Of a stretch of DNA of 64,000 nt, positions 18,754 to 35,716 are shown piece by piece. Each line of letters begins with the position of its first letter. Position 1 is the first letter of the stretch. The stretch comes from Syntrophotalea acetylenica. GTDB lineage: Bacteria; Desulfobacterota; Desulfuromonadia; Desulfuromonadales; Syntrophotaleaceae. Position numbers and translations under genes: made by a program. Under the pieces are notes generated by a model. It saw only the letters and a program-made list of their open reading frames with translations. It did no database searches and was not told where the DNA came from. Location: contig NZ_CP015455.1 in the NCBI RefSeq assembly GCF_001888165.1, positions 3,094,001 through 3,158,000 of the forward strand, in the 5' to 3' direction.

Positions 18754-19074
18754 ATGCTACATGGGAGCACCGGCGACATGAAACCTCCCTTTACGGCATT
18801 CAACGCCAGAGACGTGGGCAAAAGCCTCCAGGTGGAAATCATGCATATCCCTGAACTCTGTTATCAGGACCAGGTGCTGGAACAAAAAGCCCGCCTTCGG
18901 GCAGAGAAGAAACGGCTGGGCAACGGACCCAAAAACATCGCTGCGTGCAAAAAGGCCATTGCAAAATTTCTTGCAAGCACTGAATTGATTGCAACGGATT
19001 TTTCCGGCAAGTTGATTATCTCTTTCAAGGAAGGTGGCGTGAGCTACATCGAGAAGGTAGAACAGATCAAGTAA
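18754..19074 (+). CDS. DUF2292-like small protein, copy 2
   Basis: The product has 106 residues, with a charged helical middle (residues about 40-65, rich in Lys, Arg and Glu) and a C-terminal part (FSGKLIISFKEGGVSYIEKV) closely matching the protein at 17263-17529. GGCGGAG seven bases before the ATG at 18754 supports that start, although a shorter start at 18778 or 18841 is possible. As with copy 1, the stop is followed by a structured element and terminator. Paralogy of gene plus 3' element suggests a local duplication. The function is unknown. Confidence 0.62.
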   Translation: MLHGSTGDMKPPFTAFNARDVGKSLQVEIMHIPELCYQDQVLEQKARLRAEKKRLGNGPKNIAACKKAIAKFLASTELIATDFSGKLIISFKEGGVSYIEKVEQIK

Positions 19075-19098: not shown

Positions 19099-19187
19099 AC
19101 GCGCTTATTTCGTCCTCTGCTTTGGCAGACACACCGAAACCCGCATTGATTCCGAGTAGTCCCGGAATTTAATGCGGGTTTTTTATT
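19099..19187 (+). promoter_or_regulatory. structured RNA element plus terminator, copy 2
   Basis: TTTCG (19108-19112) pairs with CGAAA (19135-19139), enclosing TCTGC (19116-19120) with GCAGA (19125-19129) around a TTTG loop. The internal loop is TCC on one side and CACAC on the other. Directly downstream, CCCGCATT (19140-19147) pairs with AATGCGGG (19171-19178), with an inner ATTCCG/CGGAAT stem and a T-run. Relative to copy 1 the last pair of the inner stem changed from T-A to C-G, which preserves pairing. The MoeA-like gene starts 24 bases after the T-run, so control of that gene by read-through is possible. Confidence 0.6.
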
Positions 19188-19210
19188 CATCAAAACCTGG
19201 GGAAAAGAAC

Positions 19211-20236
19211 ATGGTACAGATCATTCCGGTTGAAGAGGCTGTAGGCAAGATTTTATCCCACGATATCACCCGTATTGTGCCAGGTGAGTTCAAGGGTCGT
19301 GCCTTCAAAAAGGGTCATATGATCACGGATGAGGATGTACCAAAGCTCAAACAGCTCGGCAAGGACCACATCTATGTACTCAACCTCTGTGAGGGGTTGG
19401 TACACGAAAACCTCGCTGCAGAGCGCATCGCCAAAGCGATTTGTGGTCCTTGCCTGAAGTTCGGAGAGCCGAATCAGGGGAAAATCGAGCTGACGTCGCA
19501 ATTGAGCGGGTTGCTTAAAATCGATGTTTCACTGTTGCAAAAGCTCAATGAGATCCCGGACGTAACCATAGCGACCCTGCTGACCAATCAGCCGGTGTGC
19601 GTTGGAACAACGGTTGCCGGCACACGTATTATCCCGCTGTTTACCCGGGAAGAAAACCTGCTTCGATTGGAAGATGTCTGCCGACAGCACGCCCCCCTGA
19701 TTACGGTCAAACCCTTCCTGCCTTTTCGCGTGGGCCTGATCACAACAGGAACCGAGGTATTTCACGGCCGCATCCCGGACGGTTTCGGGCCTATCGTTCG
19801 CAGCAAGTTTAAAGCGATGGGGAGCGAAATCTATCGGCAGGATATTGTTCCTGATGAAATTCCCATTATTGCGGAAGCCATTAGCAGACAAGTCTCCGAG
19901 GGTGCGCAACTGGTGGTTCTTACCGGGGGGATGTCGGTCGATCCGGATGACCTCACGCCTGCCTCCATACGCGCCACGGGCGCCTCTGTCATCTCCTACG
20001 GTGCTCCTACATATCCCGGTGCCATGTTCATGCTGGCGGAACTGAACGGGGTCCCGATCCTGGGCCTCCCGGGTTGCACCATGTACCACAAAGCCACCAT
20101 CTTCGAGCTGGTAGTCACCCGCCTGCTGGCGGGCGAAAGAGTCACACGCTCCGACATTATCGCTTTGGGCCATGGAGGTCTTTGCGCTGGCTGCCAGAAT
20201 TGCCACTACCCCAACTGCGGATTCGGAAAGAGCTGA
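19211..20236 (+). CDS. molybdopterin-binding MoeA/MogA-like protein
   Basis: The 341-residue protein resembles the stand-alone molybdopterin-binding proteins that accompany molybdenum hydroxylases. An N-terminal MoeA-like segment (residues 1-60, containing KILSHDITRIVPGEFKG) is followed by the MoCF-type domain from about 175: LITTGTEVFHGRIPDG, LVVLTGGMSVDPDD and GVPILGLPGC. The C-terminus carries a Cys-rich tail (CAGCQNCHYPNCGFG) that could bind metal. It probably binds or inserts molybdopterin for the aldehyde oxidoreductase encoded next. The ATG at 19211 with GGGGAAAAG upstream was preferred to an earlier frame extension that would overlap the terminator. A true moeA lies at 57952. Confidence 0.85.
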   Translation: MVQIIPVEEAVGKILSHDITRIVPGEFKGRAFKKGHMITDEDVPKLKQLGKDHIYVLNLCEGLVHENLAAERIAKAICGPCLKFGEPNQGKIELTSQLSGLLKIDVSLLQKLNEIPDVTIATLLTNQPVCVGTTVAGTRIIPLFTREENLLRLEDVCRQHAPLITVKPFLPFRVGLITTGTEVFHGRIPDGFGPIVRSKFKAMGSEIYRQDIVPDEIPIIAEAISRQVSEGAQLVVLTGGMSVDPDDLTPASIRATGASVISYGAPTYPGAMFMLAELNGVPILGLPGCTMYHKATIFELVVTRLLAGERVTRSDIIALGHGGLCAGCQNCHYPNCGFGKS

Positions 20237-20343: not shown

Positions 20344-23118
20344 ATGATCAAAAAGGTACTGAATGTCAACGGCATCGACCGTACCCTGATCGTCGATCAG
20401 GAAGCGTTGCTGTGCGACGTACTGCGCAAACAGTTGCAGCTGACCGGCACCAAGGTCGGGTGCGGAACCGGCGTGTGTGGCGCCTGCAACGTCATTGTTG
20501 ACGGCAAACTGGTGCGTTCTTGCGTGACCAAGATGAAGCGGATTCCGAACCTCGCAAAAATCACCACCATCGAGGGTATCGGATCGCCCCTGAATCTGCA
20601 TCCCATCCAGAAGGCTTTCATCTTTCATGGCGCCATCCAGTGCGGCTTCTGCACCCCCGGCTTCGTTGTGTCGACCAAGGTTCTGCTCGACCAGAATCCC
20701 AACCCGACCCGCGAACAAGTCCGCGACTGGTTCCAGAAGCATCGCAACGCCTGCCGCTGCACCGGCTACATCATGATCGTCAACGCAGTCATGGATGCGG
20801 CCAAGGTGCTGCGCGGAGAAATGCCCGTGTCCGCCATCGAGTACAAAACTCCCGCCGATGGCAAGGTCTATGGCACCTGCATGCCGCGGCCGACATCGGT
20901 GGCCAAGGCCTGCGGCCTGTGGGACTTCGGCGAGGACATGCGCCAGCAGCTGCCTGAGAACACCCTGGAATGCGCCCTGGTACAGCCGGAAGTTTCCCAT
21001 GCCATCATTAAGGGCATCGATACCTCCGAGGCCGAAAAAATGCCCGGCGTAGTCAAAGTCGTCACCCACAAGGACGTCAAGGGCAAGAACCGCATTACCG
21101 GCCTGATCACCTTCCCCACCAACAAAGGCGACGGCTGGGATCGTCCGATTCTGAACGATGAAAAAATCTTCCAGTATGGTGACGTTGTTGCCATCGTCTG
21201 CGCCGATACGCGGGAGAACGCCAAAGCGGCGGCGGCCAAGGTCAAGGTTGATCTGGAAGTGCTGCCCTCCTATATGAACGCCATCGCGGCCAAGGCCGAG
21301 GACGCTATCGAGATTCACCCCGGCACTCCCAACGTATATTATGACTGCATCATCAAAAAAGGCGAAGAAACCAAGCCGATCTTTGAAAAAGCCGCCCACG
21401 TGGCCGAGGGCTATTACTACCTGCAGCGCCAGCCGCATATGCCCATCGAGCCCGACGTCGGCTTCGCCTACATCGACGACGACAAGCGAGTGATTGTGCA
21501 TTCCAAGTCCATCGGCATCCATTTGCACCACGCAATGATCTGCCCGGGGCTGGGCCTCGAGCCCGAACAACTGGTGCTCATCCAGAACCCCACCGGCGCC
21601 ACCTTCGGCTACAAATTCAGCCCGACCATGGAAGCCTTGGTCGCCGTGGCCACCATGGCTACCGGCCGCCCCTGCTTCCTCGGTTACGACTGGGCCCAGC
21701 AGCAGTTCTACACCGGCAAGCGTTCGCCGGCATTCCTGAATGTACGCCTTGCCGCTGACGAGGAAGGCAATTTCCTGGGCTTGGAAAGCGACTGGGATCT
21801 GGACCATGGCCCCTATTCCGAATTCGGCGACCTGGTAACCGTGCGACAGGCCCAGTTCTGCGGCGCCGGTTATGACATCAGAAATATCCGCGGCCACGGC
21901 CGCACCGTCTGCACCAACCACGGCTGGGGCTCGGCCTTCCGCGCTTACGGTTCCCCCCAGGCGTTCATGGCTTCCGAGTCGCTGGTCGACGAACTGGCCA
22001 AGCAGATGGGCGTGGACCCCTTCGAATTGCGCTACAAAAACCTGTATCGCGAAGGCGCCACCACGCCGACCGGCCAGGAACCCGAAGTGCTGTGCTTCCC
22101 GGAGATGTTCGACATCCTGCGGCCCAAGTACAAGGCAGCCGTGGAACGTGCCAAGCGTGAATCCACCGACACCAAGAAACGTGGCGTCGGCATCTCCCTC
22201 GGTATCTATGGCTGCGGTCTCGACGGACCGGATACCTCCGGTGCCTGGGCGCAGCTGGAAAAAGACGGCAGCGTAACCATCGGCAATGCCTGGGAATGCC
22301 ACGGTCAGGGCGCGGACATGGGTACAGTGGCCTTCGCGCATCATACCCTGCGTCCCCTCGGCCTGTCGGCCGATCAGATTAATCTGTGCATGAACGATAC
22401 CAGCCTGACCCCCAACAGCGGCCCTTCCGGCGGCAGCCGCCAGAACGTGGTTACCGGCAACGCCATCCACTCGGCCTGTACCAACCTGCTGAACGCCATG
22501 CGCAAGAGCGACGGCAGCTTCCGCACCTACGACGAAATGGTCGCGGATGGCAAGGAGCTCAAATACGAAGGCACCTGGACAACGCCCTGCACGCACATGG
22601 ACCTCGATACCCAGCAGGGCAAGCCTTTCTGCATCTACATGTACGCGCTGTTTATGGCCGAGGTCGAAGTGGACGTTACCACCGGCAAGGTTGACGTGCT
22701 CAAGATGACCTATGTCGGCGACAACGGCACCATTACCAACCGTCTGGTGGTTGACGGGCAGGTCTATGGTGGCCTTGCCCAGGGTATCGGCCTGGCCCTG
22801 ACCGAAGATTTCGAGTTTATCAAGAAGCACTCGAATATGGTCGGAGCCGGCTTCCCCTACATCAAGGATATCACCGACGATATGGAGCTGATCTATATCG
22901 AAACACCGCGCAAGGACGGAGCCTTCGGCCAGGCCGGCGTCGGAGAAGGTCCGCTCACCTCGCCGCACGTGTCGATCGTCAATGCCATCGACAACGCCTG
23001 TGGGGTGCGTATCCGCCATCTCCCCGTGTATCCTGAAAAAGTGCTGGCCGCCCTCAAGTCGGAGAAAAAATCCTTCGATGTCGAGGACGCATTTGCCGGC
23101 GGATTCTTCACCGAGTAA
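20344..23118 (+). CDS. mop: molybdenum aldehyde oxidoreductase (xanthine oxidase family, Mop type)
   Basis: The 924-residue single-chain enzyme matches the Desulfovibrio gigas aldehyde oxidoreductase in architecture. It oxidises aldehydes to carboxylic acids at a molybdopterin-cytosine-dinucleotide centre and passes electrons through two [2Fe-2S] clusters. Cysteines fall at the same positions as in that enzyme: 40, 45, 48, 60 for the plant-ferredoxin-like cluster and 100, 103, 137, 139 for the second. The molybdenum domains follow from about 200, with GPSGGSRQ near 696 and the catalytic glutamate at 868 in GVGEGPLTSPH. No FAD domain is present. AAGGAGG precedes the ATG. A hairpin and a terminator separate it from the accessory genes. 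Confidence 0.95.
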   Translation: MIKKVLNVNGIDRTLIVDQEALLCDVLRKQLQLTGTKVGCGTGVCGACNVIVDGKLVRSCVTKMKRIPNLAKITTIEGIGSPLNLHPIQKAFIFHGAIQCGFCTPGFVVSTKVLLDQNPNPTREQVRDWFQKHRNACRCTGYIMIVNAVMDAAKVLRGEMPVSAIEYKTPADGKVYGTCMPRPTSVAKACGLWDFGEDMRQQLPENTLECALVQPEVSHAIIKGIDTSEAEKMPGVVKVVTHKDVKGKNRITGLITFPTNKGDGWDRPILNDEKIFQYGDVVAIVCADTRENAKAAAAKVKVDLEVLPSYMNAIAAKAEDAIEIHPGTPNVYYDCIIKKGEETKPIFEKAAHVAEGYYYLQRQPHMPIEPDVGFAYIDDDKRVIVHSKSIGIHLHHAMICPGLGLEPEQLVLIQNPTGATFGYKFSPTMEALVAVATMATGRPCFLGYDWAQQQFYTGKRSPAFLNVRLAADEEGNFLGLESDWDLDHGPYSEFGDLVTVRQAQFCGAGYDIRNIRGHGRTVCTNHGWGSAFRAYGSPQAFMASESLVDELAKQMGVDPFELRYKNLYREGATTPTGQEPEVLCFPEMFDILRPKYKAAVERAKRESTDTKKRGVGISLGIYGCGLDGPDTSGAWAQLEKDGSVTIGNAWECHGQGADMGTVAFAHHTLRPLGLSADQINLCMNDTSLTPNSGPSGGSRQNVVTGNAIHSACTNLLNAMRKSDGSFRTYDEMVADGKELKYEGTWTTPCTHMDLDTQQGKPFCIYMYALFMAEVEVDVTTGKVDVLKMTYVGDNGTITNRLVVDGQVYGGLAQGIGLALTEDFEFIKKHSNMVGAGFPYIKDITDDMELIYIETPRKDGAFGQAGVGEGPLTSPHVSIVNAIDNACGVRIRHLPVYPEKVLAALKSEKKSFDVEDAFAGGFFTE

Positions 23119-23129
23119 CACCTGCCACG

Positions 23130-23155
23130 GCGGGCCCGGCTTGAGCCGGGCCCGC
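23130..23155 (+). terminator. strong GC hairpin after mop
   Basis: GCGGGCCCGGC (23130-23140) pairs perfectly with GCCGGGCCCGC (23145-23155) around TTGA. No T-run follows, so it may stabilise the mop transcript end or act as a pause rather than a full terminator. Confidence 0.6.
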
Positions 23156-23200
23156 ATGGGTTGCGATGACTTTGCGGCAAACATGAAAAGTTTAGTATTC

Positions 23201-23240
23201 GATGGAGGGGATGTCCCATGGAGCCCCTCCATCGTCTTTT
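23201..23240 (+). terminator. rho-independent terminator between mop and its accessory genes
   Basis: GATGGAGGGG (23201-23210) pairs with CCCCTCCATC (23224-23233), followed by GTCTTTTCTTT. It makes mop expression separable from the downstream accessory operon. Confidence 0.8.
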
Positions 23241-23302
23241 CTTTGATCCTGACAGTTTAACCTCTAGGTTTGGTCGACCGCCAAACCCCGCGAGAGCGAC
23301 GG

Positions 23303-25651
23303 ATGGAAAAACAAGAACTTACAGCCTGGGAACAGAGATGCATTCAGGACGAGGCGCCAGCTTGTACCAGTGCCTGTCCTATCCACGTCGATGTACGGCA
23401 GTTTGTTCAGCAGATAGGGCAGGAAAACTGGAAGGGCGCCCTGGACACCCTGGCCCGCACCATGCCCTTTCCGCGGATTCTGGCGCACATATGCGATCAC
23501 CCCTGTGAAGAGCACTGCAAGCGTCGCCAGGCCGGCGGCGCCATTGCCATTGGCGCTCTGGAACGGGCCTGCATCCAGCATGCGCAAAACTGGCGACCCA
23601 AAGCCGTCATGGCGCAGAAACGCGCACATGTCGCCGTGGTTGGCAGTTCGCTCAGCAGCCTGACCGCAGCCTGGGATCTGCTCACAAAAGGCTATGCCGT
23701 CACCATAATCGAGCCGCAACAGCGCCTTGGCGGACGCCTGTGGGAGTTGCCGGAGGAACTGCTTCCCCGGGCTATCCTTGACCAGGACCTGCAGGCTCTG
23801 AACGCCCTGAGAGCAACGGTGGAACTGGCTGCGAAATGCGACGGCGAACGATGTCTGGAGCGACTGCAGGCTGAATTTGACGCCGTGTATATCGGCTTCG
23901 ACCACGATCTGGGCAAGGCCTTTCCCGAGCTGCGCGATGATTCGGGCCGTTTTATTTCAAACCTGCCCCTGATGACCACGGTGTGTCAGAATGTTTTTGC
24001 CGGCGGCATCGCGCCCGATGGGGAAGCCTGCTCCAACATCATGCAGGTACTTGACGGTCGCCGCGGCGCGACTTCCATAGACCGCTACCTGGCAAAAGTC
24101 GCTCTTACCTATGGCCGAGATGGTGAAGGGCCCCATGATACGCGTTTGTTCACCAACCTGACGGGCATCGAAGCACAAGCGCCGCTATTGTCATCCGACG
24201 AAACCGAACCTGCCACCGACGACGATGCCGTAAAAGAGGCGCGGCGCTGCATACAGTGCGAGTGTCTTGAATGCGTAAAGGTCTGCGATTATCTGCGCCA
24301 GGCCAAAAGTTATCCCAAAAAATACGCCCGCCAGATCTACAACAACGAGCGGGTGATTTTTGGCAGTGCCCATACCAAAAACCAGTTTGTAAATTCCTGC
24401 AGTCTTTGTGGGCTGTGCGCGGCTGTCTGTCCGACCAACTTTTCCATGGGCGAGTTGTCCCTGCAAGCGCGTCGCACCATGGTGGAGCAGAACTCCATGC
24501 CGGCCTCGTTTCACGAGTTCGCCCTGCAGGACATGGCCTTCAGCAACAGCGACAAATTCGCCCTGTGCCGCCATCAACCACGGCACAACAGCAGCAGATA
24601 CCTGTACTTTCCCAGTTGTCAGCTGTGCTCCACCTGTCCTGGTGAAGTGCTGGACTCCTATGCATACCTGTGCGATCACCTGACCGGTGGCGTCGGTATC
24701 TGGCTGGGCTGCTGCGGTGCGCCGGCGCTGTGGGCCGGCCAGGAAGAGCTTTTCAAACAAGCCCTGACGGCCATGCGGGACCAGTGGTGCGAAATGGGCC
24801 TGCCCAAAATTATTGTCGCCTGCAGCAGTTGTCAACAGCTTCTGGAAAAACATTTACCCGACATCGAAACCATTTCATTATGGTCCCTGGTCGATACCGA
24901 CACGTTGGCATCACGCGGCCAGACAACTAACCACACCGCCACGCCTCGAACACTGGCAATCGTCGATCCCTGCAGCAGCCGTCACAACCATGCCGGCCAG
25001 CAGACAGTCAGGAAACTGGTGCGGGATCTGGGCTTCCGCATCGAGGAGTTGCCATTGCACGGGGAAGAAGCAGAATGTTGCGGTTATGGCGGGTTGATGT
25101 TCAACACCAACCCGCGACTGGCAAGGGAGATCGTGAACCGTCGCGCCCAGGACAGCCCGTGCGACTACCTGGCCTATTGCGGCATGTGCCGGGACAACTT
25201 CGCCGCGACCGGCAAACGTACGGCGCACCTCATCGAGCTGCTTTTTTCCGGTCCGGGAAAAGGCGATCCGGCGGCACGCGGCTGGATTTCCTGGTCAGAG
25301 CGACGGGCCAATCGCAGCAAGATAAAAACACACCTGCTCCAGACCCGGTGGAACGAAAACGCTACCCGGACGGATTCGGAAAACAAAATGATCCTGCACA
25401 TGTCACCCGAGATCCAAAGGCGCATTGATGAGCGCCGCATACTGGAAGATGACATCCAGCGCGTTATCGCCCATGCCGAGAAAACAGGTCAGCGTCTGAT
25501 CGACAAGCGCAACGGGAACTTCCGGGCCTGCCAGGCACTGGAAAATGTTACCTTCTGGGTGGAGTACGCTCCCGAAGATCAGGGCTTCACGGTCTACAAT
25601 GCCTACAGTCATCGGATGAAAATCAAGGGAGTCAAGCATGATACCGCCTGA
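23303..25651 (+). CDS. FAD/Fe-S/CCG-domain fusion oxidoreductase, partner of Mop (DVU_1558-like)
   Basis: The 782-residue protein combines three electron-transfer modules. Residues 1-120 resemble the GltD N-terminal Fe-S region (ACTSACPIHVDVRQF, CDHPCEEHCKR). About 120-310 is a GltD-like flavoprotein fold in which the dinucleotide loop reads VGSSLSSLTAA instead of the usual GxGxxG. Residues 320-400 carry ferredoxin-like Cys motifs (CIQCECLECVKVC; CSLCGLCAAVCP). From 440 come two CCG modules (CCGAPALW and CCGYGG) of the heterodisulfide reductase B type. The last 90 residues are a separate charged domain of unknown function. It probably moves electrons from the aldehyde oxidoreductase. The start is the ATG at 23303; a TTG at 23270 is the alternative. 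Confidence 0.85.
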   Translation: MEKQELTAWEQRCIQDEAPACTSACPIHVDVRQFVQQIGQENWKGALDTLARTMPFPRILAHICDHPCEEHCKRRQAGGAIAIGALERACIQHAQNWRPKAVMAQKRAHVAVVGSSLSSLTAAWDLLTKGYAVTIIEPQQRLGGRLWELPEELLPRAILDQDLQALNALRATVELAAKCDGERCLERLQAEFDAVYIGFDHDLGKAFPELRDDSGRFISNLPLMTTVCQNVFAGGIAPDGEACSNIMQVLDGRRGATSIDRYLAKVALTYGRDGEGPHDTRLFTNLTGIEAQAPLLSSDETEPATDDDAVKEARRCIQCECLECVKVCDYLRQAKSYPKKYARQIYNNERVIFGSAHTKNQFVNSCSLCGLCAAVCPTNFSMGELSLQARRTMVEQNSMPASFHEFALQDMAFSNSDKFALCRHQPRHNSSRYLYFPSCQLCSTCPGEVLDSYAYLCDHLTGGVGIWLGCCGAPALWAGQEELFKQALTAMRDQWCEMGLPKIIVACSSCQQLLEKHLPDIETISLWSLVDTDTLASRGQTTNHTATPRTLAIVDPCSSRHNHAGQQTVRKLVRDLGFRIEELPLHGEEAECCGYGGLMFNTNPRLAREIVNRRAQDSPCDYLAYCGMCRDNFAATGKRTAHLIELLFSGPGKGDPAARGWISWSERRANRSKIKTHLLQTRWNENATRTDSENKMILHMSPEIQRRIDERRILEDDIQRVIAHAEKTGQRLIDKRNGNFRACQALENVTFWVEYAPEDQGFTVYNAYSHRMKIKGVKHDTA

Positions 25652-25841
25652 AGAAGCAGAAGCCTGGATCTGCGCCAAATGCGGAGCGCCACTGAAAATT
25701 CTCAAGGTGGAGTTCAGTTACATGAAGGGAAATTTCACCGTTGACCTGCCGGCCTGTGCCGGATGCGGAATGGTTCTGGTCACGGAAGATCTTGCTCTCG
25801 GGAAAATGGCCGAGGTGGAACGCATTCTTGAGGACAAATAG
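25638..25841 (+). CDS. small CxxC-CxxC protein of the Mop cluster (DVU_1557-like redox protein)
   Basis: The 67-residue protein has CAKCG near residue 12 and CAGCG near 40, the spacing of a single zinc ribbon or rubredoxin-like site. The start overlaps the preceding gene by 14 bases, and a ribosome site GGAG lies before it. Small proteins of this type accompany mop and the large fusion protein in Desulfovibrio-type clusters. Its role (redox carrier or metal site) is not established. Confidence 0.75.
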   Translation: MIPPEEAEAWICAKCGAPLKILKVEFSYMKGNFTVDLPACAGCGMVLVTEDLALGKMAEVERILEDK

Positions 25842-25857
25842 CGTCGACCCGTGTTGC

Positions 25858-26577
25858 ATGGCAGAACCGCCGCGGCTCTACGAATCGGCTCTTGTGCGCC
25901 AGGCCACCGGAAATACGATTCGTCCCGGAGGCCTGACCCTCTTGCAGCGCGCCATGGAACTCTGCGCCATGGCCAGCGGGGCGCGGGTGCTGGACGTCGG
26001 CTGCGGTACGGGCGCCAGCACAACATACCTGAGACATCGATATCAGTTGCGAGCGGCAGGGGTGGATCTTTCCGCCAAACTCCTCTTGGAAGGATCAGTG
26101 ACAGTTCCGGGTCTGCCACTGATCCGGGGGAGAGCGGAATACCTCCCCTGCCGAAACGCATGTCTCGACGGACTGGTATGTGAGTGCGTTCTATCCCTGC
26201 TACCCGACAGCCATGCGACCCTGTGCGAATTCAACCGGGTTCTGAAACCTAGCGCCAGGCTGATTGTCAGCGATCTATACCGGCGCGCGCCGGATGAAAA
26301 CGGGCAGGCTGAGGTATCCGTACCCTGCTGCGTCGCAAGCGCCCGAAGCCATTCGTTCATTCGGAAGCAGGTGCTTTCGGCAGGTTTCGAGTTGCAGCTT
26401 TGGGAAGACCACTCTTATCTGCTTGGCAATCTGGCGGCTCGACTGATACTGGATCATGGTTCCCTGCAAGCGTTTTGGGTAAAGGTTTTCGGCGAGACGG
26501 CGGGCCAGGAGATAGCGCACGCCGTGGCGGCCTCCCGCCCTGGATATTTTCTGATGATTGCGCAAAAACGGATTTGA
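25858..26577 (+). CDS. class I SAM-dependent methyltransferase of the Mop cluster (DVU_1556-like)
   Basis: The 239-residue protein has the class I methyltransferase fold. Motif I is VLDVGCGTGAST near residues 44-55, the acidic end of strand 2 is GVDLSAK near 68-74, and motif II falls at LVCECVLSLLPD. It belongs to the Methyltransf_11-like group, and its substrate is unknown. The ATG at 25858 gives the usual N-terminal helix; a longer frame would overlap the previous gene and is not protein-like. It is followed by the C-GCAxxG-C-C gene after 10 bases. Confidence 0.85.
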   Translation: MAEPPRLYESALVRQATGNTIRPGGLTLLQRAMELCAMASGARVLDVGCGTGASTTYLRHRYQLRAAGVDLSAKLLLEGSVTVPGLPLIRGRAEYLPCRNACLDGLVCECVLSLLPDSHATLCEFNRVLKPSARLIVSDLYRRAPDENGQAEVSVPCCVASARSHSFIRKQVLSAGFELQLWEDHSYLLGNLAARLILDHGSLQAFWVKVFGETAGQEIAHAVAASRPGYFLMIAQKRI

Positions 26578-26587
26578 AGGAGACGGG

Positions 26588-27037
26588 ATGATGCTTGAAA
26601 ATACAATGCGTATGTTTGAACTGGCCGAAAAAGGTTATTACTGCAGCCAGATACTGTTGTCTCTTGCCCTGGACAGCTGTGGCCGAACCAATCCCGACCT
26701 GATCAGAACCATGGCCGGGCTTGCGCACGGTGCGGGTTTCGGTGCCGGCACCTGCGGCGCTCTGACTGGCGGCTGTTGTCTGCTCGCTTTCTATTCCGCC
26801 AAGGGCAGCGATACGGAAGAAGAGACCGAGCTTTTCATGGGCATGCGCCAGCAACTGACCGAATGGTTCATTGAATCCGTCGGCGAGCAGTATGGTGGCG
26901 TCGACTGTGAAACCATCGTCGGAGACGGCGCGGACAAACAGATTCGCTGCGGACAGATTGTCGGGGCGGTTTATGCCAAGGCACGGGATATCCTGACCCG
27001 TAACGGTTTTGACATGTCGATTTGCAAACAGGACTGA
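26588..27037 (+). CDS. C-GCAxxG-C-C family protein (DVU_1555-like)
   Basis: The 149-residue protein contains the family pattern: Cys in GYYCSQ near residue 19, TCGALTGGCC near 55-64, a Cys in GGVDCETI near 105, and one near 120 (IRCGQI). These cysteines probably bind a metal cluster or form redox disulfides. Members often sit beside oxidoreductases, and the biochemical function is unknown. RBS AAGGAGA precedes ATG 26588. It lies between the methyltransferase and the radical SAM gene of the accessory operon. Confidence 0.85.
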   Translation: MMLENTMRMFELAEKGYYCSQILLSLALDSCGRTNPDLIRTMAGLAHGAGFGAGTCGALTGGCCLLAFYSAKGSDTEEETELFMGMRQQLTEWFIESVGEQYGGVDCETIVGDGADKQIRCGQIVGAVYAKARDILTRNGFDMSICKQD

Positions 27038-27044
27038 CACCATT

Positions 27045-28435
27045 ATGTCGATGCCACTGGAAACCGCCAGCCTGTGCCCTTACTGCCTGCGCCGGGTACC
27101 CGCCCGCCGGATTTTTAGCGGAAATGACGTGCAGCTGGTAAAAGAGTGCCCCGAGCACGGCCGGACAAGTACCGTTATCTGGCGCGGAACGCCGTCCATG
27201 CCGACCTGGCGACGCCCCAAAACACCCTCCCGGCCGCCGGTCTGTTTTACAGAAAGCAAACACGGTTGCCCCTTCGACTGCGGACTTTGTCCCGACCATG
27301 GCCAGCACAGTTGCTCCGCCCTTCTGGAAATAACCCAGCGCTGCAACCTGCACTGCCCGGTCTGCTTTGCCGACAGTGGTGACACCGGGACTGCTGATCC
27401 GGATCTTGAAACAATCGAATCATGGTACCGTTCAGTGCGGCATGCCTGCGGTGATCACATTGCCGTTCAGCTCTCCGGGGGGGAACCGACCGTGCGTCAG
27501 GATCTGCCGGAAATCATCGCCGCGGGGCGTCGCCATGGCTTCAGCTTCCTTCAACTCAATACTAACGGCCTGCGGGTGGCAAAAGACCCGAATTATGCAC
27601 GGCAACTCAAGGAAGCAGGGCTCGCCACCATGTTTCTGCAATTCGACGGCACCGATGATACCATCTATCGGAAACTGCGAGGCCGCGATCTGCTGGAAAT
27701 AAAGTTGCGTGCCATTGATCATGCCGTGGCCGCGCGGTTGGGTGTGGTGCTGGTGCCGACCATCGTGCCCCGGGTCAACACGCAAAACATTGGCGACATC
27801 CTTCGTTTTGGCCTGGAGCGCAGTCCGGGAGTGCGCGGCGTGCATTTTCAGCCAATCAGCTATTTCGGCCGGTTCCCCTACCCCCCTCGGATGAAGACCG
27901 CATTACGCTGCCGGAAATTCTGCAGGCCATTGAGCGCCAGTCAGGCGGCGACATGCGCGTCGATCATTTTGCCCCGCCCGGCTGTGAGCATTCCCTGTGT
28001 TCTTTTCACGGCAACTTCGTGTCATTGCCGGACGGCCGACTGCACGCGCTTACAGACCCATCTTCAAGCTGCTGCTGCAAGCCAATCGTGGCGGCAGAAG
28101 GTGCCAGGAAATCAACGGCTTTTCTTACCCGACAGTGGGCCGCGCCCGAATCCGCCACAGAGCAGAAGAAAAAAACCGGAACAGAAGCCTGCGGTTGCGA
28201 GCCGGCAGCATCCGACCTGGACGATTTTCTGCAAAGGGTCAAAACCCATACCTTCGCCGTTTCGGCAATGGCTTTTCAGGACGCCTGGAACGTTGACCTT
28301 GAGCGCACCCGCAATTGCTGTATTCATGTGGTCGCGCCCGATGGTCGCCTCGTCCCTTTCTGCCTGTATAACCTGACTTCAGCCGAGGGCAAAACTCTTT
28401 ATCGTGGTCACAATCGTGCAGATGTCGCCCATTGA
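27045..28435 (+). pseudogene. radical SAM protein of the Mop cluster (TrsS/DVU_1554-like), one frameshift
   Basis: The first frame encodes an N-terminal Cys-rich module (CPYC near residue 8; CPFDCGLCPDH near 75) and a radical SAM core with CNLHCPVC near 100-107 and SGGEPTVRQD. Homology stops after FGRFPYPP. The continuation (SDEDRITLPEIL, SLCSFHGNF, SSCCCKP, ACGCEP) lies in another frame and ends at 28435. One extra C in the run 27881-27886 joins the halves into a protein of about 463 residues. This is probably a homopolymer under-call. The reaction is unknown: relatives accompany molybdenum aldehyde oxidoreductases and some are annotated as selenoproteins, but I see no in-frame TGA here. The restored stop overlaps the next gene. 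Confidence 0.8.
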
Positions 28436-29771
28436 AAACTGGACCGCCCGACAGATTGGCCTGCCAGGCGGAGAAAATCTGTCCCTGCAGGCGCTGCGCG
28501 CTTATCAGCTTGACCGCCTGAATGCAACCCTTGCGCACGCTGTCGTTAACAGCCCGTTTTATGGGCACCGGCTGCAAAGCTGTGGACCTTTGCGAAAGCT
28601 GGAAGAACTGAACCGGCTGCCCTTCACGACAGCGGCGCACCTTTCCGGGCAGGGCCTGCAGATGCTGGCCGTCTCTCAAAGCAAAATCGATCGCATTGTA
28701 ACTTTGCGCAGTTCCGGAACCACCGGGCAAGCCAAGCGGCTTTACTTCACACGCGCGGATCTGCGGCGGACCCAGGATTTTTTCCGTTGTGGCATGTCCC
28801 AGGTACTGCAACCCGGCAGCCGGGTGCTGGTCCTGCTGCCCGGCGACCTGCCGGACAGCCAGGGACGCCTGCTGGCGGAGGCCCTTGAAACCGTCGATGT
28901 GGAATGCGAGATTTATGGCCTGCTGAACAAGCCAGGCCACGCCGCCTCATTGCTGGTCAAAGAACCCTTCGACTGCGTAGTGGGCATACCGACGCAAGTG
29001 CTGGCGTTGGTAAGGCACCCCATGGCGGCCGACGTACCGCGCGGTCGCATCGGCGGCGTTTTTCTGACCTCGGACTATGTCCCCTCGGCGCTGGTGCAGG
29101 ATATCAGTCGCATCTGGGGGTGCCCGGCCTTCAACCATTACGGCATGACCGAACTTGGTTTGACGGGGGGCGTGGAATGCCAGGCATTGAGCGGCTATCA
29201 CCTGCGCGAAACCGACTTTTATTTCGAGGTGATCGATCCCGACTCCGGTAAGGGATTGCCCGCCGGTGAAACTGGCGAGGTCGTGGTCACCAGTCTGCAG
29301 CGCACCGGCATGCCTCTGATCCGCTACCGTACCGGGGACCTCGCCCGCTTTATTGACACCCCCTGCCCCTGTGGGAGCAGCCTGCCGCGCCTGAGCAAAC
29401 TTCAGGGACGCCTTGCTGGGCAGATCGATATCGGCGGCCCCCTGAAACTCTCCATGTCAGACCTGGATGAAGCATTGTTCACCATTTCCGGTCTGCTCAA
29501 CTACCGCGTCAGGCTGTATACCCCGGCGTCCGGCAAAAAGGCCTTGCAGCTGACCCTGGAAACCCTGCCCGGCAGGGAAGGCCAAACCCGCGACACCATC
29601 AACCGACGCCTGCCAGCCATCCCTGCACTGCACGAGGCGGCTGCCACCGGAGCCCTTGTTCTGCTCCCCGCACAGCTGGCCGAAGCACCCTTTTCCGCGT
29701 CGGCGAGGACTAAACGTATGATTGAAATATCAGAAAAGGAGCATCCCTGCCTTGAAACAGCTCATCACTGA
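28422..29771 (+). CDS. AMP-dependent CoA ligase, PaaK-like, of the Mop cluster (DVU_1553-like)
   Basis: The 449-residue protein belongs to the phenylacetate-CoA ligase-like branch of adenylate-forming enzymes. It shows the AMP-binding loop LRSSGTTGQAKRLYFT near residue 92-107, NHYGMTELG near 236-244 and RYRTGDLARF near 297-306, followed by CPCGSSLPRL. It would activate a carboxylic acid, either as an acyl-adenylate or a CoA thioester; the substrate is unknown. The start at 28422 overlaps the end of the radical SAM gene, consistent with one operon. Confidence 0.85.
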   Translation: MSPIENWTARQIGLPGGENLSLQALRAYQLDRLNATLAHAVVNSPFYGHRLQSCGPLRKLEELNRLPFTTAAHLSGQGLQMLAVSQSKIDRIVTLRSSGTTGQAKRLYFTRADLRRTQDFFRCGMSQVLQPGSRVLVLLPGDLPDSQGRLLAEALETVDVECEIYGLLNKPGHAASLLVKEPFDCVVGIPTQVLALVRHPMAADVPRGRIGGVFLTSDYVPSALVQDISRIWGCPAFNHYGMTELGLTGGVECQALSGYHLRETDFYFEVIDPDSGKGLPAGETGEVVVTSLQRTGMPLIRYRTGDLARFIDTPCPCGSSLPRLSKLQGRLAGQIDIGGPLKLSMSDLDEALFTISGLLNYRVRLYTPASGKKALQLTLETLPGREGQTRDTINRRLPAIPALHEAAATGALVLLPAQLAEAPFSASARTKRMIEISEKEHPCLETAHH

Positions 29772-30807
29772 AATTTGTAAATACCTCGGCGCCGGAGAAT
29801 CTCTGGCCGTGGCGACCATCCTTACACGCAGTGGCTCGGCACCGCGCACGGCCGGAACCAAAATGATCATTCGCGCCAATGGCGATATCTCAGGGACGAT
29901 CGGCGGCGGGCTCGTGGAAGCGCGAACCCAGGAAGCGGCCCGGGAAATTTTTACCACGCGCCAATCCCGAACCTACGCTTTTGATATGACCGGAGCCGCG
30001 GCCGATACCATGGATATGATCTGTGGCGGCGTTGTCGAAATTCTGCTGGAATACGTGGATGCCACCGATGAAACGCGAACCGTTTTCGAGGCTTGGCTTG
30101 CCGCGCTGCAGACCGGCAGGGATTGCCTGCTGATCACACCTTTGCCGGCGGAAAAACAGGCACCGACGTTGAAACGCTGCCTGCTGTACGCGGACGCCTC
30201 CTGTTTCGGACCGACCCTTCTGCCTCAGCAGCTCCGCCAGAATTTACTGACGGCCGCCGATGGCAGTCGTTACCCGATGCTGATCGACGTAATGGGTTCC
30301 CTCTTCTTTGTCGAACCCAGCCATGCTCCCACAACGCTTTATCTGTTCGGGGCGGGGCATGTCTCCCGGCCCACGGCGGCATTGGCGTCAATGGTCGGAT
30401 TTCGCACAGTGGTTCTCGACGATCGCGCTGAATTTGCCAACCGGCAACGGTTTCCCGAGGCACAGGAAATCTTGGTGGTTCCCTCCTTTGACGACTGCAT
30501 GACACCGCTGGGTATCGATCGCCACAGTTTCCTGGTAATCCTCAGCCGCGGCCATCTGCACGATCAGAACCTGTTGCGCCAGGCGGTACAGACTTCGGCC
30601 GGATATATCGGTATGATCGGCAGTCTGGGCAAACGCGACAAAATCTACCAGAACCTGCAGGCCGAAGGCATCCCCAAACAAACCCTGGACAACGTCTTCT
30701 CGCCCGTAGGTATCGCCATCAATGCCGAAACGCCGCAAGAAATCGCCGTCAGCATTGTTGCGGAACTGATCAAGGTCCGTGCCACCCTGGGGCAGGGTCA
30801 TGAATGA
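29752..30807 (+). CDS. XdhC-family molybdenum hydroxylase maturation factor (DVU_1552-like)
   Basis: The 351-residue protein has an N-terminal XdhC/CoxI segment (SAPRTAGTKM near 30, then GTIGGGLVE) and a C-terminal Rossmann domain (LFGAGHVSRPTA near 203, then GMIGSLGKRDK). XdhC proteins bind the Mo cofactor, hold it during sulfuration and hand it to xanthine-oxidase-family enzymes, here very likely the adjacent Mop. AAGGAG lies 10 bases before a TTG at 29752, which I prefer over the TTG at 29722. It overlaps the end of the CoA ligase gene by 20 bases. Confidence 0.9.
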   Translation: MKQLITEICKYLGAGESLAVATILTRSGSAPRTAGTKMIIRANGDISGTIGGGLVEARTQEAAREIFTTRQSRTYAFDMTGAAADTMDMICGGVVEILLEYVDATDETRTVFEAWLAALQTGRDCLLITPLPAEKQAPTLKRCLLYADASCFGPTLLPQQLRQNLLTAADGSRYPMLIDVMGSLFFVEPSHAPTTLYLFGAGHVSRPTAALASMVGFRTVVLDDRAEFANRQRFPEAQEILVVPSFDDCMTPLGIDRHSFLVILSRGHLHDQNLLRQAVQTSAGYIGMIGSLGKRDKIYQNLQAEGIPKQTLDNVFSPVGIAINAETPQEIAVSIVAELIKVRATLGQGHE

Positions 30808-31941
30808 ATCGTTTGCCGCCATCATTCTGGCTGCCGGCTTTTCATCCCGCATGGGGGCTTTCAAGCCCCTTTTGCGATTGGGCGCGGAAACCGCCCTGGA
30901 AAAATCGATAAAGCTGTTCCGCCGAACCGGCATCGCGCATCTGCAGGTGGTTGTCGGACACCAGTCCGAGGCGCTGATACCCCTAATCGAGGATTTGAAC
31001 GTCTGCTGCACCATCAACCCCCGCTACCAGGAGGGCATGTTCACTTCGGTGCAATGCGCCATGGCCCGCTTGCCGGAGGGGATAGATGCTTTCTTTATGC
31101 AACCGGTGGACATACCGCTGACCAGAAACCGGACTCTGGATGCCCTGATTCGGGCCCGCCAGGCAACCGGCAAGGGGATCATTCATCCGGTATTTTGGGG
31201 CAAACGCGGACACCCGCCCCTGATCAGCACCACATATCGGGACCTGATTCTGCAAAGCGACGGAGAAGGCGGACTCAAGGCTCTGCTGCTGCCATTTGCC
31301 GATAATATCCTCGAAATCGAGGTCCCGGATGAACATTGTACCCTGGATATGGACACCCCTGCGGATTACGCTTATCTGCTCTATCGCCAGGAACACTTTG
31401 CCGTGCCTTCCCATCGGGAATGCGAACATCTTCTGACGCATCATTTTTCGGTATCCGAGAAGGTTGCGGCACACAGTCGCCAGGTTGCTCGGGTGGCCCT
31501 GACCCTGACGTCGCACCTGAACCAGGCGGGCATCGTGATGGATCGCGAGCTTGTCCGGGCGGCAGCATTGCTGCACGATTGCTGTCGCAGCCAGACGGAT
31601 CACGCCCGGACGGGGGCCAGGGCGCTGCGGGAACTCGGTTACGAAACCATCGCCGGGCCGGTCGCTTCACATATGGATATTGACGTTCCCCGGAGGCAGT
31701 TCCCACTTTGCACGAAGTGCTGTTTTTGGCGGATAAGCTGGTGATGGGTTCTCGGTTGACCGACCTGAATGAGAGGTTTGCGGAAAAGCTGGAACGTTTC
31801 TCCGGCCAACCGGCCATTGTTGACGCGATAGAACGTCGCCGGCAGGCCGCCTGCCGGATCGGAAAAAAATGCGAGACGATTTTCAAGAGATCGCTGACCG
31901 AGGTACTCAGGCGCGATCATCTGGACGAACTGGAAGGGTAA
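30800..31941 (+). pseudogene. MobA/MocA-like nucleotidyltransferase with HD domain (DVU_1551-like), one frameshift
   Basis: Residues 1-200 are an NTP transferase of the MocA/YgfJ group: IILAAGFSSRMG near 8-19, MQPVDIPL near 99, and DMDTPADY near 184-191. Such enzymes attach CMP to molybdopterin, giving the dinucleotide cofactor used by Mop. An HD phosphohydrolase domain follows (AALLHDCC near 255). The frame then leaves homology after DIDVP and stops at 31744. The rest (LHEVLFLADKLVMGSRL) continues in another frame to 31941. One extra C in the run 31688-31691 restores a protein of about 380 residues. The start ATG overlaps the XdhC stop. Confidence 0.82.
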
Positions 31942-31953
31942 AAGGTCGCAACC

Positions 31954-32706
31954 ATGCCACATAACAGTGATAATTCCTGCACCCTCTACCTGGTGCGACA
32001 CGGAGATTCACGTCAGGACGCTAACCGGCGCTATATCGGACAGTGCGATCCGCCCCTCAATCCGCAAGGACGCGCCCAGGCCAAATCTCTGCAACAGATG
32101 CTGGCGCATACCGACCTGAAGAGTGTGTATTGCAGCGATTTGCGCCGCTGTCGGGAAACCGCCCGCATTGTTGGCGGGCACCGGGGGCTGAGAATTCGTC
32201 CCGTGCCAGCCCTGCGCGAGATTGCCCTGGGTGACTGGGATGGTCTGACCGTGGCGGAAGTTTGCCATCGTTTTCCCGGTGAATATGAAAAACGCGGCAA
32301 GGACATGGTCAACTACAGACCCCCCTCGGGGGAAAGCTTTGCCGATCTTCAGGCGCGGGTGGTTCCGGCGTTCCTCGAAGTGATCCGCGAGGCGAGAGGT
32401 CCGGTTCTGCTGGTCGGCCATGCCGGCGTCAACCGTGTCATCCTGTGTCATGTCATGCGGCGTGCACTGGAGGAGTTATTCGAGATTCCACAAAACTATG
32501 CACGCCTGAACATCATCGAACGCCGCGACGACACATTAAATGTGAAAGCCATGGATATTGCCCCGCGAAGCACGGCCTGGGAGGCGCTGGAAATTTCGCC
32601 GGTCCGAAGCGCGCAAACCTCACCCTTTGCAGCGGAGCAGGTACGCAAATATGGCACGGGACAATCGACCGTGAAGCCGTTATCGAAACCGGCTGTTTCT
32701 TCATAA
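31954..32706 (+). CDS. histidine phosphatase family protein (phosphoglycerate mutase-like)
   Basis: The 250-residue protein has the catalytic LVRHGDS (Arg15, His16), the conserved CSDLRRCRETA near 59-69 and the second catalytic His in LVGHAGVNR near 153. The sequence resembles CobC-type alpha-ribazole phosphatases and broad small-molecule phosphatases. It follows the nucleotidyltransferase by 12 bases and closes the Mop accessory operon, so a phosphate ester in cofactor synthesis is a plausible substrate, but this is inference. The last 40 residues are low in conservation. Confidence 0.85.
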   Translation: MPHNSDNSCTLYLVRHGDSRQDANRRYIGQCDPPLNPQGRAQAKSLQQMLAHTDLKSVYCSDLRRCRETARIVGGHRGLRIRPVPALREIALGDWDGLTVAEVCHRFPGEYEKRGKDMVNYRPPSGESFADLQARVVPAFLEVIREARGPVLLVGHAGVNRVILCHVMRRALEELFEIPQNYARLNIIERRDDTLNVKAMDIAPRSTAWEALEISPVRSAQTSPFAAEQVRKYGTGQSTVKPLSKPAVSS

Positions 32707-34627: not shown

Positions 34628-35374
34628 ATGAGTCTTTTGCAACAAGCGCAGACCAAATTGACAAGCCTGTGCGATGCCGCGCGACTGGAACGCGACAGCA
34701 CCGTAACCGTTCGGGTACTGACCCCCGACGAGGCCATTGGCGCCAAGGCCGATCCGAATTTTGTCATTAAAAAGGGCAAAGAGCGGGTCATTGAAGCCTG
34801 CTGGAATGAATCTCGCGGGCAAGCCTTTACGGATCGCCCCTGCGACTGGCAAGGCAGCCTCGACGAATTACTGACCATGGATCTGCACCAGGTCGATCGC
34901 AGGGCGGTATTCACCGCCGGCCTGAACGCCGTGCTGTGCGGATTGAAGCAGGCGGAGGGCACCATCCACTGCAAGGATGAGGAACCGGCTCGCTGCGGAG
35001 AGGAATTTACCCGACGGCTGCATGCGCGTTTTGGCGTCAAGCGTTTCGGCATGATCGGATTGCAACCGGCCATTCTGGACGCCATGGTGGAGGGCTTCGG
35101 CGCCGTCAGGATGCGGGTGGTGGATCTGAACGAGGACAACATCAACAAAAAGATTTGTGATGTCATGGTCTGGGATGGGGAAAAAGATCTGGAAAAATTG
35201 ATCGAATTCTGTGACGTGGGTGTCGCCACCGGTTCCACCGTCGTGAACGGCAGCATCAACGATCTGATAGAAAAGTTTCAGGAAGCCGGCAAGCCACTGG
35301 TTTTCTTCGGCAACACCATCGCCGGGGTGGCTTCACTTATGAACCTGGACCGCATTTGCCCTTTCGCCCACTAA
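34628..35374 (+). CDS. DUF364 protein (putative heavy-metal chelation, Rossmann-like)
   Basis: The 248-residue protein resembles the DUF4213/DUF364 family described as putative heavy-metal chelation proteins. The C-terminal half has the Rossmann-like blocks KRFGMIGLQPAIL near residue 138, VMVWDGEKDLE near 180 and VATGSTVVNGSI near 200. No biochemical function is established. AAAGGAAC precedes the ATG at 34628. It lies between modBC and the DUF3343-desulfurase pair, suggesting a metal or cofactor role, which is inference. Confidence 0.75.
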   Translation: MSLLQQAQTKLTSLCDAARLERDSTVTVRVLTPDEAIGAKADPNFVIKKGKERVIEACWNESRGQAFTDRPCDWQGSLDELLTMDLHQVDRRAVFTAGLNAVLCGLKQAEGTIHCKDEEPARCGEEFTRRLHARFGVKRFGMIGLQPAILDAMVEGFGAVRMRVVDLNEDNINKKICDVMVWDGEKDLEKLIEFCDVGVATGSTVVNGSINDLIEKFQEAGKPLVFFGNTIAGVASLMNLDRICPFAH

Positions 35375-35411
35375 CATAAAAAGCCTGTGTGAACCTGGAC
35401 GACGCAAACCG

Positions 35412-35681: not shown

Positions 35682-35716
35682 GAGTACCATCTTGTTGATA
35701 TTGTCCGGAGACAAAC

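Follow-up and report, generated by a model that had tools for sequence, protein, structure and literature searches.

According to passages of PMC9966888, the xanthine oxidase family owes its first crystal structure to the aldehyde oxidoreductase Mop of Desulfovibrio gigas, and parts of PMC10920352 and PMC11784015 identify DVU_1559 as the aldehyde oxidoreductase of D. vulgaris. We analysed a window of 64,000 nucleotides from Syntrophotalea acetylenica (contig NZ_CP015455.1, positions 3,094,001 to 3,158,000, forward strand), in which a mop gene heads an operon of the NCBIfam families DVU_1551-1558 and TrsS. An earlier note on this DNA had listed the genes of this island between 20344 and 32706: all are present on the plus strand and in the order given there, and each matches a curated family, the frameshifted TrsS in part. 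The DVU_1551-1558 names given in that note are those of NCBIfam, and since DVU_1559 is the D. vulgaris aldehyde oxidoreductase, the numbers describe the same neighbourhood. The neighbourhood itself is not new, its families (NF045663-NF045669, NF045645 and NF045646, named DVU_155x, TrsS and pterin_aldehy) having been catalogued by NCBI; the curators seem to have been aware of it, since the accessions are consecutive and one family is called "XdhC family aldehyde oxidoreductase maturation factor". Unlike the reading proposed here, the family names carry no substrate, product or pathway, and no paper on the DVU_155x/TrsS set was found in the open-access literature, where matches to these names were lists or tables with DVU_1559, one paper with DVU_1558 (PMC3114432) and unrelated uses of "TRSS". 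None of the following was encountered in the literature searched: the pathway reading, the residue evidence concerning tetraether synthase (Tes) and ArsM, the mop-free and archaeal forms, the plasmid-borne pairs, or the RelE-like tail. Six core genes are designated trs in the following: DVU_1558, DVU_1557, the methyltransferase DVU_1556, the C-GCAxxG-C-C protein DVU_1555, the radical S-adenosylmethionine (SAM) enzyme TrsS and the ligase DVU_1553.

Described systems resemble parts of this locus. Accessory operons of the xanthine oxidase family (xdhC, mocA, cox, selenium-dependent hydroxylases) share XdhC, MocA-like and desulfurase genes as well as a molybdenum-related leader RNA with the island, but the portion of the PMC2997495 text examined holds no counterpart of the six trs genes. 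Sulfuration and cytidylation of the molybdenum cofactor (Moco) indeed leave these six genes unexplained, as the note had argued. The archaeal Tes, a glycerol dialkyl glycerol tetraether (GDGT)/macrocyclic archaeol synthase (MJ0619, PDB 7tol), is homologous to TrsS and has the same four sets of metallocofactor ligands; TrsS differs by the lack of a Tyr459 counterpart, by scores below the Tes cut-off and by its genomic setting. The arsenosugar pathway with ArsM and ArsS likewise places a methyltransferase with two conserved cysteines beside a radical SAM enzyme, whereas the trs methyltransferase scores below the ArsM cut-offs, and the trs set includes an additional ligase and a radical SAM enzyme best affiliated to NF045646/Tes and not to ArsS (TIGR04167).

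The earlier note had proposed the co-occurrence of these genes with mop as a check. Whole genomes were searched for Mop (NF045668) and TrsS (NF045646) in samples of 158 genomes of the window's phylum, 199 genomes of the phylum of Acetobacterium (G171) and 26 relatives; TrsS-like matches of 145-374 bits in the first and 228-363 bits in the second sample were left uncounted, named fragments excepted. In the window's phylum Mop exceeded the cut-off in 11 genomes and was present as fragments in one more (G092). TrsS accompanied it in all twelve, and six of 18 TrsS genomes had no Mop, the total of 18 comprising 16 matches over the cut-off, the frameshifted S. acetylenica copy and a fragment (G036). 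In the Acetobacterium phylum Mop was over the cut-off in 15 genomes and fragmentary in two (G242, G244); 14 of these 17 had TrsS (13 over the cut-off, G241 at 469 bits), and none of the 199 genomes had TrsS without Mop. Eight of the nine relatives with Mop over the cut-off carried TrsS, the exception (G383) being a genome of 67% completeness, and no genome among the 26 had TrsS alone. Fisher tests gave p values of 6e-14, 6e-19 and 6e-6 for the 158, 199 and 26 genomes, which are related, so that the trials are not independent. As a control, six genomes of these samples with a best Mop relative of 670-810 bits (G030, G006, G075, G079, G216, G226) had no TrsS over the cut-off. The Mop-trs tie is near-obligate, and a service of trs to Mop in most trs hosts is well supported.

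A TrsS alignment was used to scan genome contigs, and the best 80 of the 581 relatives it detected were labelled by family profiles. The ranking of the 80 loci by likeness to a TrsS from a mop locus inflates the share with mop and guarantees that TrsS is present; the profiles were seeded from L033-L050, and those loci match by construction. For the count, 31 too-short loci were dropped; the 49 retained extend 7.4 kb or more ahead of TrsS and 4 kb or more beyond it. mop was found in 40 of the 49. These 40 mop loci all contained DVU_1558 with all its parts, DVU_1557, the methyltransferase and DVU_1555, and 39 had the ligase, while the fusion of a nucleoside triphosphate (NTP) transferase with an HD domain (NTP-HD; 30 loci), XdhC (28), CobC (26) and MoeA (20) were optional. 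By these counts the nine-gene list of the note separates into a near-invariant six and a replaceable Moco-maturation part. All six core genes also occurred in 11 of 11 mop loci from the phylum sample, the mop of L043 being cut by the contig end. Conservation of the set with mop extends far beyond Desulfovibrio, to which the note had referred, to loci titled Clostridiaceae, Chloroflexi, Acidobacteriota, Spirochaetaceae, Pleomorphomonas and others. Open-frame fusions were observed for TrsS-methyltransferase, methyltransferase-ligase, NTP-HD-TrsS (L082, L100), ligase-CobC (L064) and DVU_1558-DVU_1557; because such fusions join its genes, trs appears to be one pathway. An accidental or historical linkage, by which the trs genes beside mop do unrelated work, is highly improbable. 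It could draw on the existence of trs without mop, but 48 of the 80 loci hold all seven genes, 44 of them in identical order and strand and across several phyla, and mop and TrsS are both absent from a close relative of the same genus (G374, 99% complete).

We tentatively prefer to see the island as a dedicated Mop accessory operon, in which trs would make and recycle a small thiol- or selenol-type redox compound with DVU_1558 as its disulfide and electron partner. XdhC, the MocA-like NTP-HD protein, the CobC-like phosphatase and the MoeA-like protein would represent ordinary, replaceable Moco maturation, and trs an older route to the small organic compound, which it would make and recycle. 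The PaaK-like ligase may convert a carboxylate to an adenylate or coenzyme A ester. TrsS may use a cluster-bound radical to join an unactivated carbon to sulfur (or to another carbon), and the ArsM-like methyltransferase with its thiol pair may methylate a soft atom (S or Se). DVU_1557 and DVU_1555 would be small metal or thiol proteins. DVU_1558 with flavin adenine dinucleotide (FAD), Fe-S clusters and two HdrB-type CCG sites may reduce or oxidise the disulfide form of the compound; it would also be the probable partner in electron transfer for Mop, itself devoid of FAD. A more specific version seems quite unlikely: an undescribed thiol- or selenol-bearing organic redox cofactor, in role a bacterial analogue of the coenzyme M/B pair, formed through a Tes-type C-S bond and ArsM-type methylation and recycled by DVU_1558, with Mop as main but not only client besides enzymes of the dimethyl sulfoxide (DMSO) reductase family or corrinoid enzymes. 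Among the three possibilities of the earlier note, an unusual cofactor, a modified enzyme or an electron carrier, the evidence leans to a small-molecule redox compound or carrier, and a stable modification of Mop is less likely. We prefer the small redox compound to a change of Mop or its cofactor, this to Mop as a step of the pathway, and this in turn to a metalloid function. A six-gene pathway tracking Mop across several phyla suggests that the crystal structure of Mop is not the whole of the enzyme's needs; identifying the trs product would reveal what Mop requires in the cell.

The radical chemistry of this proposal draws on the likeness of TrsS to Tes. TrsS matched the tetraether synthase structure 7tol with 428 bits. 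Against the Tes model NF045702, with a cut-off of 450, the first frame of the window copy scored 257 bits and intact copies (L121, L106, L122) 368-389 bits. TrsS keeps the Tes ligands of the rubredoxin iron and of the N-terminal, SAM and C-terminal clusters as well as the Met439 position, each ligand column being kept in 62-65 of the 65 mop-linked rows, in 22-25 of the 25 unassigned rows and in all 12 mop-free ones, with gaps accounting for most misses. Tyrosine at the position of Tyr459 was found in none of the 65 mop-linked rows, which have V (43), I (8), E (3), S (3), T (2), Q, P, C or A (1 each) or a gap (2) there, and in none of the 12 mop-free rows (V 11, T 1). The part of PMC9433317 consulted reports Tyr459 as strictly conserved in archaeal Tes, a substrate radical held as S-C bond to a cluster in a substrate-cluster intermediate, and activity of the variants Y459F and Y459L; the loss of Tyr459 in TrsS is therefore compatible with Tes-type chemistry. 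Such chemistry is suggested for TrsS by the 7tol match, the retained metal ligands and the S-C intermediate of Tes. Through TrsS, trs contains a relative of a radical enzyme that links inert carbon atoms to each other, and TrsS points to a branch of the tetraether synthase family outside archaeal lipid synthesis. One TrsS protein (L088:9962-12136) has an extra C-terminal cysteine-rich domain, which we take to be like DUF5714, and a protein resembling the metal-binding selenoprotein MbdU adjoins TrsS in L155 (13223-13954).

Among the relatives of the methyltransferase DVU_1556, all 79 rows have Cys116, and Cys163 is found in 67 of the 70 that remain when nine gaps are left out. The two residues occupy the places of the SNC and CxxGA cysteines of ArsM, which all 13 aligned rows share, the three annotated ArsM among them; in ArsM these cysteines bind the substrate. 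The invariant pair suggests methylation of a soft atom by DVU_1556. It would also fit a metalloid function, in which the ArsM-like enzyme methylates arsenic, selenium or a similar element, TrsS attaches carbon, and the link to Mop is protective, arsenite being an inhibitor of molybdenum hydroxylases. Plasmids of haloarchaea and Mycolicibacterium carry overlapping genes for a TrsS-like protein and a methyltransferase in the vicinity of redoxin or thiol-disulfide genes, and TIGR04282-like glycosyltransferases, under the cut-off, lie near operons of TrsS-like proteins and molybdenum enzymes; both observations could be read in the same way. However, against the ArsM model NF008823 with a cut-off of 263 the window protein scored 57 bits and that of L121 98 bits, and no arsenic gene was noticed by eye at mop loci, where the labelling covered the island families alone. 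A ligase is not known to be part of the ArsM/ArsS pathways. A metalloid function is improbable.

Disulfide handling by DVU_1558 is suggested by its two complete HdrB-type CCG motifs (C..CC..CxxC), which stand beside GltD-type Fe-S cysteines, a FAD motif and a dicluster ferredoxin part. Each cysteine of the CCG motifs was found in 66 of 66 relatives, which were chosen for their FAD and CCG parts; the Pfam CCG match had 39.5 bits. The C-terminal domain (about 25394-25648) is predicted to have a RelE-like fold: a model of the stand-alone copy in L109 had a predicted local distance difference test score (pLDDT) of 90.9, the best Foldseek match an E value of 0.012 with probability 1.00, and DUF4258 an E value of 0.016, under its cut-off. 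The VIA aligner gave BrnT with Z 8.1, 2.8 Å root-mean-square deviation and 74 aligned residues, at the edge of its meaningful range; the remaining rows, with Z 7.6 and less, were mostly RelE/ParE/YoeB-type toxins. A RelE-like domain followed by a YgiT-like zinc finger (25394-25841 in the window) is fused in L075, L085 and L093. The DVU_1558 tail and DVU_1557 are perhaps a reused toxin-antitoxin-like pair inside a redox operon. DVU_1557 scored 19.2 bits with TIGR03831, just under the cut-off of 20.2. The four cysteines of DVU_1555 were invariant in 74 of 74 relatives; its all-helical model (pLDDT 95) gave no lead, the best Foldseek match in the PDB having an E value of 1.5. Sequence searches of DVU_1555, DVU_1557 and the DVU_1558 C-terminal domain against the PDB gave nothing significant.

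The six phylum-sample genomes with trs and without Mop (G115, G070, G096, G036, G109, G132) all had the DVU_1558 C-terminal domain, DVU_1557, the methyltransferase and TrsS, five the ligase and two DVU_1555; where seen, the C-terminal domain was a separate protein of about 90 residues. Loci L106, L109 and L121 from metagenome-assembled genomes (MAGs) hold the whole core except DVU_1555, L121 being also without the FAD part, which in L106 and L109 is kept on a protein apart from the C-terminal domain. Archaeal loci (L115, L122, L128) retain the C-terminal domain, TrsS and the ligase, with a trace of DVU_1557 attached in L122 (E 6e-5, under the cut-off) and L128 (E 0.1). The genomes of these six loci have no Mop over the cut-off. 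Loci L073, L088, L092 and L101 show no mop in range but their genomes contain Mop elsewhere, as does that of L127. The earlier note had held that frequent occurrence of the set without mop would speak against its proposal. No complete locus with the nine-gene set and without mop was seen, the apparent case L064 beginning inside the mop gene, whereas most of the core does occur without Mop, namely in the six genomes of the 158 and in some archaea and Chloroflexi, and the pathway is therefore not restricted to Mop by origin. It looks like an older pathway recruited by Mop.

Several observations weigh against the redox-compound reading. Trs runs without Mop in several genomes. The CCG protein has no FAD part in four mop-free loci of the phylum sample and hence need not be an electron partner of Mop, and the archaeal loci show neither methyltransferase nor CCG protein. 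Three of the 17 mop genomes of the Acetobacterium phylum (G242, G251, G363) had neither TrsS over the cut-off nor a methyltransferase match exceeding about 97 bits; on the short contigs of G363, three of its four mop genes still adjoin a DVU_1558 gene. The second mop of the S. acetylenica genome (L049) is without trs within its 20 kb, and the control is not exception-free, since G164, reached via the trs locus L109, holds only a 799-bit Mop relative elsewhere. The substrate and product of Trs, the order of its steps and the route of the electrons are inferred. The physiological electron partner of D. gigas Mop is still uncertain, and flavodoxin serves as its acceptor in vitro.

The mop-free neighbourhoods bear on another explanation, in which Mop is itself an enzyme of the Trs pathway, an acyl or aldehyde route where Mop would oxidise an aldehyde and the ligase would activate the resulting acid. 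An aldehyde oxidase and an AMP ligase form a natural sequence, and mop-free clusters have other enzymes in their vicinity: URO-D-family genes (L115, L122), a corrinoid protein and RACo (L109), HGD-type dehydratase genes, and in L121 a FAS1/MaoC-type dehydratase between TrsS and the ligase. TRAP-type transporter genes were seen by eye in L037, L038 and L109. On the other hand, as passages of PMC4275255 describe, the molybdenum-dependent acetaldehyde dehydrogenase Pcar_0220 of Pelobacter carbinolicus replaces the tungsten enzymes in ethanol oxidation when tungsten is short. Oxidising acetaldehyde does not in itself call for any of the six enzymes. The gene of Pcar_0220 is probably the mop of such an operon, judged from its position in G375, a genome of the window's genus with mop at 281912 followed by the full set. 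A role of Mop within the pathway is unlikely.

A somewhat better case, doubtful all the same, can be made for a modification of Mop or its molybdopterin cytosine dinucleotide by Trs. TrsS and the methyltransferase would then change an active-site residue, the nucleotide or the pterin, and XdhC and the NTP transferase would work alongside them in one assembly line. It would account for the near-obligate tie and for the NTP-HD protein, fused to TrsS in two loci and encoded directly before it in L086, L087, L102 and L116. A TrsS-like subgroup beside molybdenum enzymes of the DMSO reductase family (L151, L158, L160) points in the same direction. But trs is present in archaeal MAGs without a Mop relative at E 1e-100, and twelve solved entries of close Mop homologues exist in the PDB, none of which is known to show a modified cofactor. 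The pterin-methylating activity once given to MJ0619 was moreover not corroborated, according to passages of PMC9433317, the enzyme being a lipid synthase, and for this reason pterin methylation by TrsS via its "HMPTM" zinc ribbon (PF23545) was rejected as well. A general role in Moco or tungsten cofactor synthesis is disfavoured: the part of PMC10102598 seen enumerates 15 D. vulgaris genes that confer a benefit in chlorate when lost, which belong to Moco, tungstate uptake, aor and signalling and include none of DVU_1551-1558, and many genomes with below-cut-off Mop relatives have no TrsS over the cut-off.

In a tree of 124 sequences the mop-type TrsS proteins formed a single clade of 90 tips (support 0.90); as "mop" counted every locus not put in another group, including some on contigs too short to show mop and L094, whose genome has no Mop at E 1e-100. 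Sister to this clade were nine bacterial mop-free TrsS (joint support 0.999), followed outward by three archaeal TrsS (0.87) and two haloarchaeal plasmid copies (0.98). On plasmids of Mycolicibacterium, Haloarcula and Salinirubellus (L177, L178, L179) the TrsS-like gene overlaps a DVU_1556-like methyltransferase gene, by 1 base on the haloarchaeal plasmids and by 1-4 bases across the set, and the pairs adjoin redoxin/peroxiredoxin, thiol-disulfide, DUF547 or CcdA genes. The Mycolicibacterium pair falls elsewhere in the tree, among poorly resolved branches. In the simplest reading of the tree, with moderate supports, the methyltransferase-TrsS pair would be old, the ligase and DVU_1557/DVU_1558 would have joined later, and Mop would have recruited the set once.

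The features of the operon are listed in the following table.

Features of the mop operon in the window; scores in bits with family cut-offs in brackets
Feature	Coordinates	Strand	Evidence
Moco-II RNA (RF01713), operon leader	19100..19144	+	cmscan 47.4 (gathering 35)
MoeA-like molybdopterin-binding protein	19172..20236	+	TIGR00177 domain 60, under cut-off (85)
mop, Mo-dependent aldehyde oxidoreductase	20344..23118	+	NF045668 1643 (1100), profile positions 1-905 of 905
DVU_1558, GltD-type Fe-S/FAD part, dicluster ferredoxin, two CCG motifs, RelE-like C-terminal domain	23303..25651	+	NF045663 1018 (530)
DVU_1557 (DUF7479), CxxC...CxxC mini-protein, YgiT-like zinc finger	25638..25841	+	NF045645 98 (60)
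DVU_1556 SAM methyltransferase, ArsM-like, two conserved Cys	25858..26577 (start may be TTG 25828)	+	NF045667 252 (155)
DVU_1555 C-GCAxxG-C-C protein	26588..27037	+	NF045669 163 (103)
TrsS radical SAM enzyme, Tes family, frameshifted near 27886	27048..28435	+	NF045646 458, first frame only (490)
DVU_1553 adenylate-forming (PaaK-like) ligase	28422..29771	+	NF045666 448 (300); PDB 4r1l 109
XdhC-type maturation factor	29722..30807 (start may be 29752)	+	NF045664 434 (350)
DVU_1551 NTP transferase (MocA-like) fused to HD domain, frameshifted near 31685	30800..31941	+	NF045665 364 (315)
CobC-like histidine phosphatase	31954..32706	+	TIGR03162 169, barely over cut-off (163)

While the genes of the island are those of the earlier note, the unit begins earlier than proposed there, with the Moco-II RNA and the MoeA-like gene. 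The leader RNA suggests control of the operon by molybdenum. In each of six related loci (L171-L176) one to three copies of it lie upstream of or at the start of MoeA-mop, and the MoeA-like gene holds the same place before mop. The intergenic gaps from DVU_1558 to the phosphatase measure only -50 to +16 bases, and this stretch therefore looks like one operon; the gap between mop and DVU_1558 is 151 bases, or 184 if DVU_1558 begins at the ATG at 23303. Scans of the region for promoters and terminators stayed near chance level. The Pfam search of Mop identified two 2Fe-2S domains and the molybdenum domains, and found no FAD domain. Mop matched PDB 1sij with 1360 and 1dgj with 1355 bits; with the selenium-dependent xanthine dehydrogenase model TIGR03311 it had 426 bits, under the cut-off of 830. 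The NTP transferase scored 127 bits with the MocA cytidylyltransferase model TIGR03310, under its cut-off of 186. The closest named relative found, Pelobacter sp. UBA6812 (L056), has a Mop 84% identical and the same gene order through the mod genes.

Both TrsS and the NTP-HD gene of the window are split. TrsS changes frame near a C6 run at 27881-27886, the second frame matching the remainder of the protein; its 458 bits fall under the cut-off of 490 because the first frame alone was scored. In the seven other genomes of the genus and family having TrsS, the gene is in one frame in all seven, with 663-687 bits for NF045646. The second frame of NTP-HD, from near 31685 to 31941, matches relatives, and the gene is whole in the six related loci fetched. 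A third frameshift splits the downstream ModC near 34055; distances of 2-4 kb separate the affected genes. An error of sequencing or assembly would be the simplest explanation; alternatively, the genes may be subject to recent decay or loss in the strain.

The island is followed on its 3' side by modB, modC, DUF364, DUF3343, a TIGR01977 desulfurase and modA. modB, the desulfurase (440 bits, cut-off 377) and modA were identified by family search, whereas modC, DUF364 and DUF3343 are presumed assignments, some of them made by eye. The presumed DUF364 and DUF3343 genes and the desulfurase occupy 34628-36883, between modC and modA; TIGR01977 is familiar from clusters of selenium-dependent molybdenum hydroxylases. 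Selenium supply as a common theme was dropped as uninformative, selD matches being present in 25 of 26 relatives (23 over the cut-off) with or without mop. As the CobC-like phosphatase is optional (present in 26 of 40 loci), we do not favour a role in cobamide synthesis. By eye, cobamide-synthesis-like genes were seen near TrsS in L155 and cobalt-transport-like genes in L088.

Besides the leader, the window contains a second Moco-II RNA (17532-17580). Each is preceded by a small open reading frame (17263-17529 and 18754-19074) with like ending sequences, as if one unit had been duplicated. The second Mop of the genome (G000:C1:2349609-2352326) scored 1226 bits and has its own Moco-II RNA upstream. 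In one trs locus two pieces related to Mop lie on the other strand (L066:6595-9488; 313 and 155 bits with the profile), so that it perhaps has another molybdenum hydroxylase beside trs. The TrsS-like genes in operons with DMSO-reductase-family enzymes, these enzymes being recognised by family search for L158 and by eye for L151 and L160, scored about 395 bits with NF045646 in L158 and L160; the TIGR04282-like glycosyltransferases follow in L151 and L160, and MoeA-like genes occur in L158. Other Tes-like genes (L157, L156, L159, L181), recognised mostly by eye, include two in tandem, surrounded by genes resembling those of fatty acid synthesis, and others adjacent to Lgt-like genes, which suggests further bacterial lipid-coupling systems.

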